From the NCBI GenBank assembly GCA_020055645.1, contig CM034546.1, positions 50,964,001 through 51,028,000 of the forward strand: DNA of 64,000 bases, read 5' to 3'. The notes beneath the pieces were generated by a model, which did no database searches, was not told where the DNA came from, and saw only the letters and a list, made by a program, of their open reading frames with translations. The DNA comes from Tomocerus qinae (taxonomy: Eukaryota; Arthropoda; Collembola; Entomobryomorpha; Tomoceridae). A program made the translations under genes and the position numbers. Positions 11,249 to 48,108 of the stretch are shown piece by piece (the stretch's first letter is position 1; every line of letters starts with the position of its first letter).

Positions 11249-11417
11249 ATGAAATCCTTACTTCTGCTCCTTTGGTTGTACCCACTATCGTTTTCAAATG
11301 CTAGTTATCCTCGACAGAATCAACATGGAGGATTTCAACCAAAGAAGCGCAATGCGGAGCAAGAAAGATTTACGAAACTGGAACCCGATATGGTATTTCA
11401 ACTGCCTCCTTTAAATG
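11249..11417 (+). CDS. Receptor kinase exon 1: signal peptide
   Basis: The ATG at 11249 opens a strong secretion signal ([18 protein letters not shown]), followed by a polar linker rich in Q, K and E. The donor GTAAAT at 11418 follows codon 56 plus one base (phase 1), which matches the phase-1 acceptor at 12078. This start is chosen because no other leader precedes the first GH18 exon. Confidence 0.75.

Positions 11418-48108: not shown

Follow-up and report, generated by a model that had tools for sequence, protein, structure and literature searches.

A predicted Pvr-like receptor tyrosine kinase with three chitinase-like domains, and its family, in the springtail Tomocerus qinae

RESULTS

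One predicted gene joins three GH18 domains to a tyrosine kinase

The window, by which we mean the whole 64,000-nt stretch of DNA analyzed here (C1:50964001-51028000), carries a gene model on the plus strand at 11249-48108 (C1:50975249-51012108). The model was built by scripted splice scoring and anchoring, paralog exons then served to extend it, and the result was checked by hand. It comprises 25 exons (Table 1) with phases compatible across all junctions, which together form one frame of 5,463 nt encoding 1,820 amino acids, with a single stop codon and none internal. The original prediction had given 26 exons and 5,559 nt. Its unbroken frame, module order and coordinates were recovered, all on the plus strand, but its exon count and length were not, and the two models are 96 nt apart.

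The predicted protein runs from a signal peptide (a hydrophobic, signal-like N-terminal stretch, read by eye) through GH18-Ig-GH18-Ig-GH18 and a transmembrane helix to a complete tyrosine kinase. In the spliced protein, Pfam detected GH18 in three stretches (E 1e-79; 268.9 bits versus a PF00704 cut-off of 29.6), Ig_3 in two stretches (E 1.3e-16) and the tyrosine kinase PF07714 (PK_Tyr_Ser-Thr) at residues 1527-1806 (E 2.3e-77; profile positions 3-254 of 258). A single hydrophobic segment, at approximately residues 1446-1476 within exon 18, lies above the Kyte-Doolittle threshold. Because GH18 beta-8 and the membrane helix share this one exon, the join between GH18 and membrane is independent of splicing. 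The kinase contains the glycine loop GSGAFG, the VAVK lysine, the alpha-C Glu, the catalytic loop and the activation-loop tyrosines, and a kinase insert is placed between the hinge and alpha-E. The proposed receptor tyrosine kinase (RTK) with three chitinase-like domains is thus upheld by the 25-exon frame, the Pfam domains and the paralog. At the level of predicted sequence, we regard it as confirmed that the window holds one gene encoding a single-pass RTK with a Pvr-like kinase and a GH18-Ig ectodomain.

Table 1. Predicted exons of the GH18-Ig receptor tyrosine kinase gene and the retrotransposon within it (window coordinates)
Feature	Position	Strand	Content and paralog comparison
Exon 1	11249..11417	+	Start ATG, signal-like hydrophobic stretch; ATG and GT kept in paralog L036, 79% identity
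Exon 2	12078..12278	+	GH18 domain 1 beta-1 (a exon); paralog 52% identity, AG kept, no GT at expected base
Exon 3	17974..18076	+	GH18 domain 1 beta-2/3 (b exon); paralog AG and GT exact, 67% identity, E 3.6e-11
Exon 4	20406..20490	+	GH18 domain 1 catalytic-motif exon, HGLSIQNGD, without Glu
Exon 5	20581..20994	+	GH18 domain 1 d exon; own-genome GH18 match C1:50984578-50985009; paralog AG exact, GT not at expected base
Exon 6	28424..28924	+	GH18 domain 1 beta-7/8 (e exon) and beginning of Ig 1
Exon 7	29208..29412	+	Ig domain 1, second half
Exon 8	36891..37082	+	GH18 domain 2 a exon
Exon 9	39639..39813	+	GH18 domain 2 b exon
Exon 10	40444..40531	+	GH18 domain 2 catalytic-motif exon, NGLCFSSTF, without Glu; paralog GT exact, AG not at expected base
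Exon 11	40626..41048	+	GH18 domain 2 d exon
Exon 12	41525..41935	+	GH18 domain 2 e exon and beginning of Ig 2
Exon 13	42020..42236	+	Ig domain 2, second half
Exon 14	42884..43078	+	GH18 domain 3 a exon
Exon 15	43145..43307	+	GH18 domain 3 b exon
Exon 16	43402..43483	+	GH18 domain 3 catalytic-motif exon, HGLYLDSDF, without Glu
Exon 17	43560..43985	+	GH18 domain 3 d exon
Exon 18	44282..44671	+	GH18 domain 3 e exon; transmembrane helix at ~44582-44647
Exon 19	44879..45014	+	Juxtamembrane segment, PYDISYE
Exon 20	45313..45522	+	Kinase N-lobe: GSGAFG, VAVK, alpha-C Glu
Exon 21	46121..46241	+	Kinase hinge and beginning of kinase insert
Exon 22	46361..46472	+	Kinase insert end and alpha-E
Exon 23	46552..46674	+	Catalytic loop (HGD), activation-loop tyrosines
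Exon 24	46767..46978	+	Kinase C-lobe, PWRWMAIES ...
Exon 25	48000..48108	+	Kinase C-lobe end, short tail, stop codon
LINE-type retrotransposon ORFs	22540..26389	+	Intron between exons 5 and 6; outside coding gene

Transposons have enlarged the introns of the window gene, up to 7.5 kb, and such growth could impair its expression. Within the intronic LINE, the open reading frames at 23498-26386 matched RVT_1 (E 4.4e-31) and Exo_endo_phos (E 9.4e-14) in Pfam, and the associated frame at 22540-23349 is included as an open reading frame. Satellite-like, AT-rich tandem repeats of about 21 bp occupy 21064-22176, 26531-26707 and 61745-63611; the first two arrays have a common unit and lie on either side of the LINE. 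In the intron between exons 2 and 3, 15515-16673 holds two oppositely oriented arrays of a 38-bp repeat, flanked by shorter inverted arrays; this looks like a long terminal-inverted-repeat element. Upstream of the gene, Pao/BEL-type retrotransposon frames lie at 1982-6901 (Peptidase_A17, RVT and integrase zinc-binding domains in Pfam). Two further open frames, at 57036-59015 (659 aa) and 8560-9840 (426 aa), gave no Pfam match at E 0.01.

A complete paralog under purifying selection

A paralog lies 2.9 Mb away on the minus strand (C1:53.915-53.957 Mb), with 25 of 25 exons present in conserved order. Across exons 3-25, an acceptor AG occurs at the exact expected base in 22 of 23 cases (the exception is exon 10), and across exons 3-24 a donor GT does so in 21 of 22 (the exception is exon 5). 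Exon 3, which is weak by sequence alone, takes its support from this copy. The 7.5-kb window intron at 29412-36891 corresponds to only ~395 bp in the paralog. A split within this intron had been named in advance as the finding that would turn the gene into separate neighbors; no such split emerged, and the one-gene claim stands.

Between the window gene and the paralog (dS 0.30-0.38), dN/dS was 0.11 in the kinase exons (180 codons, 92% identity) and 0.41 in exons d and e of GH18 domain 3 (269 codons, 72% identity). In the pair L014-L015, the order was opposite, with 0.07 for GH18 and 0.22 for the kinase; here the GH18 dS of 2.79 is near saturation, and dN was still higher in GH18 (0.20 versus 0.11 in the kinase). 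No positive selection was indicated, dN/dS being below 1 in all pairs that could be computed. Judged from these substitution rates, the GH18 and kinase parts of the window gene are both under purifying selection, which is stronger on the kinase. Since the paralog retains all exons in order, with conserved splice sites and these dN/dS values, the locus represents a single gene rather than neighboring ones, and a chance joining of the modules is excluded by the full-length ordered copy.

The window gene belongs to a large family

The assembly searched contains 334,443,149 bases in 115 contigs. Among 20 regions fetched from it, 14 loci show the arrangement a-b-c-d-e(-Ig)...e-TK, in which the GH18 exons precede those of the kinase (L009, L011, L012, L013, L014, L015, L016 with L017, L018, L019, L020, L023, L024, L026 and L027). 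Several of these lack a detected b or c exon, both of which are short, and some an Ig or first kinase exon. GH18 exons alone were found in L010, L021, L022, L025 and L028, of which L010 runs on into L009 and L025 into L026. GH18 domains per chain number between one, in L014, and four, counted by adjacency across L025 and L026, and L014 and L015 have one Ig domain each. Paralog gene models could be built for 10 of the 12 tried (not for L020 and L023), and the L024 model ends early.

A genome query with one kinase exon gave 150 scored matches from 346 candidates, 139 of them on C1, and a query with the GH18-plus-membrane exon gave 110 matches, 28 of which extend to the membrane helix. At least 37 of the 150 kinase exons, all 37 on C1, have a GH18 exon on the same strand within 5 kb upstream; the count rises to at least 42 within 10 kb and at least 45 within 20 kb. 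Under a circular-shift null of 200 shifts, the 5-kb count averaged 0.235 and reached 4 at most. The 37 are exon pairs rather than gene models checked for intactness, and in two of them (near C1:15.65 and C1:124.39 Mb) the GH18 match is short and partial. The kinase list holds 150 of 346 candidates, so there may be further pairs; L018, for example, does not appear in it. The receptor originally described is not a lone case. C1 makes up 140 of the 334 Mb, and many kinase-exon matches lie in clusters, so that the RTK expansion is concentrated on one contig.

Active-site residues of the GH18 domains

Active GH18 chitinases carry the motif DxxDxDxE with its catalytic Glu, and the beta-8 Trp is the residue on which chitin stacks. 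The catalytic Glu is absent from all three GH18 domains of the window gene, as the original prediction had it, and at beta-8 the Trp is replaced by Glu in domains 1 and 2 and by Asn in domain 3. Across the family, the Glu occurs in 1 of 28 motif exons, that of L015 (FDGLNLDWEYP); the 28 consist of 25 with an adjoining d exon and the window's three, L013 6110 and L028 1968 having been excluded as non-motif exons. In L014 and L018, the catalytic motif carries a Gln but is recognizable in other respects. In the control chitinase loci of the same genome (L001-L008), 7 of 8 have DxDWE, or 5 of 6 distinct motif exons, as L003/L008 and L004/L007 share their exons; L002 has LDWHYP. The beta-8 Trp is kept in L014 and L015 and not in L018 (GIMVSSIDYDDF).

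A side observation concerns L015, where positions 3777-8800 (C1:65.527-65.532 Mb) contain a single GH18-Ig-TM-kinase unit with both the catalytic Glu and the beta-8 Trp kept and with the first Asp of DxDxE replaced by Asn. The automated model leaves out the motif exon and the membrane helix, which were read by eye. L015 is possibly an enzyme and a receptor in one predicted protein.

With both Glu and Trp lost, chitin cleavage is not to be expected of the window gene, and it makes a poor candidate for binding chitin in the classical way. The residues behind the chitin idea are kept in other members and not in this gene, and the beta-8 Trp is also missing from L018, which branches first in the family tree; this counts against that idea. 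Hence, of the earlier suggestion of a chitin- or glycan-sensing kinase that may serve moulting, wounding or defence, the chitin part is weak for the window member, and L014 and L015 retain the Trp. Judging from these residues, chitin is a doubtful ligand for the window member and a less doubtful one for L014 and L015.

Kinase class and origin of the modules

Among the best 60 of 2040 PDB matches to the kinase were VEGFR1 (E 1.5e-66) and PDGFR-alpha (1.7e-65); the top match was an EGFR entry (9p9u, 8.9e-76, in two stretches), with these two next in rank. The catalytic loop reads HGD rather than HRD. We considered HGD as a degenerate catalytic loop and rejected this, because all seven insect and crustacean Pvr/VEGFR-like proteins checked also have HGD, which is probably inherited. 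RTK class III/V (PDGFR/VEGFR/Pvr) ectodomains consist of five to seven Ig domains; the window gene departs from this pattern with two Ig and three GH18 domains.

In a FastTree kinase tree that took in arthropod Pvr/VEGFR-like kinases and no other RTK class, the 13 GH18-linked kinases sampled all formed one clade (support 0.93), which falls within the springtail kinase radiation. The tree omitted L024 and L027 (exon filter) and the springtail proteins P0024, P0038, P0143, P0145 and P0148 (motif filter). L018 branches first, followed by L014 and L015, with one GH18 each in the regions read, and the window gene is nested deepest, paired with its L016 paralog (0.99). Support is low (0.66) for placing an Allacma Sema-RTK as sister to the clade, and weak nodes occur at several places deeper among the springtails (one 0.07).

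The closest solved relative of the L014 GH18 is OfChtIV (E 7.5e-76, versus 4.4e-28 for IDGF-2), and by this comparison the module looks chitinase-derived rather than IDGF-like. An IDGF origin was accordingly rejected on the L014 sequence, which alters the comparison with IDGFs made in the original prediction. The main text of the Holacanthella springtail paper counts 23 chitinase-like genes and several domains in which the catalytic Glu is missing, reports no obvious IDGFs, and does not use the word kinase (PMC5644144).

Related kinases with other ectodomains

Among the matches listed, the closest single-receptor kinases with named species came mostly from the springtails Allacma fusca, Orchesella cincta, O. 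dallaii and Folsomia candida. In Allacma, the architectures are Kelch-Ig-TK, LDLa-trypsin-TK, destabilase-TK and Sema-PSI-TIG-TK, and in T. qinae the kinases of L029, L030 and L031 lie just downstream of Ig exons (partial matches with best E 7.8e-5, 0.0078 and 6.6e-6, mostly below curated cut-offs). This variety in predicted ectodomains suggests a modular springtail RTK radiation.

Several individual loci and proteins are recorded here as observations. At L032 (C1:59964001-59972000), exons with PSI (E 9.6e-6) and TIG/IPT (E 6.5e-10) matches precede related kinase exons, together with a membrane segment that looks plexin-like by eye, making this a possible plexin-ectodomain receptor kinase. At L033 (C1:47639001-47647000, minus strand), related kinase exons closely follow an 807-aa LRR frame (LRR_8, E 4e-42) whose end forms a hydrophobic helix; going by the reading frame, this is a possible LRR receptor tyrosine kinase. 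The A. fusca proteins P0137, P0023, P0088, P0029 and P0015 combine Kelch-Ig, trypsin-LDLa, destabilase or Sema-PSI-TIG ectodomains with related kinases (that of P0088 taken from sequence and precomputed domains). The O. dallaii RTKs P0027, P0028, P0031, P0033, P0038, P0042, P0140, P0142 and P0166 have ectodomains of ~700-1000 aa in which Pfam found no convincing match. The repeats of P0166 resemble GH17 beta-1,3-glucanase barrels by eye, and a GH17-like glycoside-hydrolase ectodomain is possible in P0166, P0028 and others of this set; a PDB sequence search with one P0166 stretch returned no match, and a structure model made for the GH17-like question in an O. dallaii ectodomain was too poor for use (mean pLDDT 35.5).

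Searches for the same architecture elsewhere

No protein with both GH18 and a tyrosine kinase was present among the matches listed in three protein searches (8 of 8, best 120 of 1577 and best 120 of 342), and the eight matches of the first all have chitinase domains and no kinase. As the two larger sets are the best 120 matches each, a weak or short relative could be missed, and absence from Allacma is weak evidence because its gene models come from short contigs. A family GH18 profile, with rows cut roughly and several extending past the GH18 end, matched 8 of 8 chitinases among 237 returned proteins, and none of the 229 others fell below the inclusion threshold (best E 0.074). In the literature, judged mostly by title and the start of the abstract and not exhaustively, no animal RTK with a chitinase or GH18 domain was found. 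The proposed check for GH18-plus-kinase proteins thus did not meet the architecture elsewhere, and the claim that no animal GH18 RTK has been described agrees with both kinds of search, neither of them exhaustive. A GH18-ectodomain animal RTK was not found described in the searches made.

DISCUSSION

Overall, we propose that the window gene encodes one Pvr-class RTK with ligand-driven signaling and a catalytically dead ectodomain, in which GH18 TIM barrels of chitinase origin alternate with Ig domains, and that it belongs to a duplicated family of single origin; we put the probability of this joint explanation at roughly 0.78. Class III/V RTKs undergo ligand-driven dimerization and trans-phosphorylation and signal through Ras/MAPK. 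By analogy, an extracellular ligand held by the GH18-Ig array would draw two receptors together, the paired receptors would phosphorylate one another on their activation-loop tyrosines, and a Ras/MAPK-type signal would follow. Members such as L014 and L015, in which the beta-8 Trp is kept, may read chitin or chito-oligosaccharides, which could come from fungal food, from pathogens or from the animal's own cuticle. The window member, in which the Trp is lost, probably reads another glycan or a protein.

As for what such a family would be used for, the GH18-RTKs may form a pattern-recognition array of diversified microbial or fungal glycan sensors serving immunity or food-sensing, akin to plant receptor-like kinases. 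We consider this a serious possibility, although we would not quite give it even odds. The faster divergence of the ectodomain than of the kinase in the closest paralog pair (72% versus 92% identity), the clustering of many of the at least 37 kinase exons with close upstream GH18, and the variation from one to four GH18 domains per chain by adjacency all suit a sensor array, as far as predicted sequences can tell. Chitin-groove residues are kept in L014 and L015, and fungi are thought to be major in the springtail diet, according to the main text of the Holacanthella paper (PMC5644144). However, dN/dS is below 1 in every computable pair, and lineage expansions may also serve development or chemosensation.

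A developmental growth-factor receptor, which would bind a PDGF/VEGF-like ligand through its Ig domains and use the GH18 domains as spacers, would agree with the Pvr-class kinase and the presence of Ig domains. Nevertheless, the Ig domains make up little of the ectodomain, L014 and L015 have a single one each, and what multiplied and diversified was the GH18 unit; we therefore think this role unlikely. It is quite improbable that the gene is a decaying or silent family copy, intact by chance, from which no receptor is made. The introns are swollen by transposons as such a copy might have them, but 5,463 nt run without a stop or frameshift, splice sites are conserved in the paralog, and dN/dS is 0.11 in the kinase and 0.41 in GH18 at a dS of 0.30-0.38. 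An ectoenzyme-receptor, in which GH18 still cuts chitin and couples this to signaling, finds its best case in L015, with FDGLNLDWEYP, the catalytic Glu and the beta-8 Trp; yet in L015 Asn stands in for the first Asp of DxDxE, and none of the three window domains has the Glu; we judge this reading highly improbable. Finally, we give almost no credence to the idea that the joining is only apparent and that the locus holds two or three genes, a plain tyrosine kinase and its secreted chitinase-like neighbors. Long window introns and tandem GH18 sequences in the genome speak for it but are outweighed by the common beta-8 and membrane-helix exon (44282-44671; seven family members aligned), the compatible phases of 25 exons, the GH18-then-kinase order seen again in 14 loci and the short paralog counterpart of the disputed intron.

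Returning to the dead GH18-Ig receptor that we favor, we suggest that its family arose through a single joining of a chitinase-type GH18 to an Ig-RTK in a springtail lineage. After the fusion, the catalytic Glu would have been lost in nearly all copies, and the family would have spread as its genes duplicated, in part as tandem copies, while the GH18-Ig unit multiplied. On a broader and more tentative view, which we hold as possible rather than probable, the springtails have a counterpart of the plant receptor-like-kinase repertoire. One Pvr-type kinase would have multiplied (at least 150 related exons) and been joined repeatedly to different ectodomains: GH18, LRR, PSI/TIG and Ig in this genome, and Kelch, LDLa with trypsin, destabilase and Sema in Allacma. 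In the GH18 branch, the members would be diversified glycan sensors descended from a chitinase, at least one of which, L015, may also be an enzyme.

RTK classes are defined by their ectodomains, and to our knowledge new classes are rare in animals. If our reading is true, a large RTK class that senses via retired chitinases would be a new animal route to reading polysaccharides or their mimics. Because one genome keeps several stages, with one GH18 that has the Glu, others with Gln and several that are degenerate, the change from enzyme to receptor is directly testable.

Compared with known systems, the window protein is like Pvr/PDGFR-VEGFR receptors in its kinase class, kinase insert, Ig domains, single membrane helix and HGD loop, and in its juxtamembrane YD..E motif, which we take to be a feature common to that class. 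It differs from them in an ectodomain that is mostly GH18 (three domains) with two Ig domains, and in its very short C-terminal tail. The RTKs of Allacma, Orchesella and Folsomia have kinases of the same springtail radiation, but their ectodomains are different, being Ig, Sema/PSI/TIG, Kelch, LDLa with trypsin, or destabilase. IDGFs, CHI3L1/YKL-40 and Ym1 are secreted chitinase-like lectins with the GH18 fold and a dead active site; in contrast, the window GH18 domains are predicted to be membrane-anchored, fused to a kinase and without the beta-8 Trp.

Tobacco CHRK1 has a kinase of the plant-type receptor-like Ser/Thr class. It is described as a membrane-located kinase with a chitinase-like ectodomain lacking the catalytic Glu (PMC10573068), and on that description CHRK1 is the closest known architecture to the window protein; the parallel drawn in the original prediction is borne out by this comparison. 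The two have in common a GH18 ectodomain without the Glu, a membrane helix and a kinase predicted to be intracellular. Whereas CHRK1 is a receptor-like kinase of plants whose chitinase domain is plant class V-like, the window protein has a metazoan PDGFR/VEGFR-class kinase and three GH18 domains of animal chitinase affinity. CHRK1 and the springtail GH18 kinases are probably of independent origin, and the family would parallel the plant chitinase-receptor kinases.
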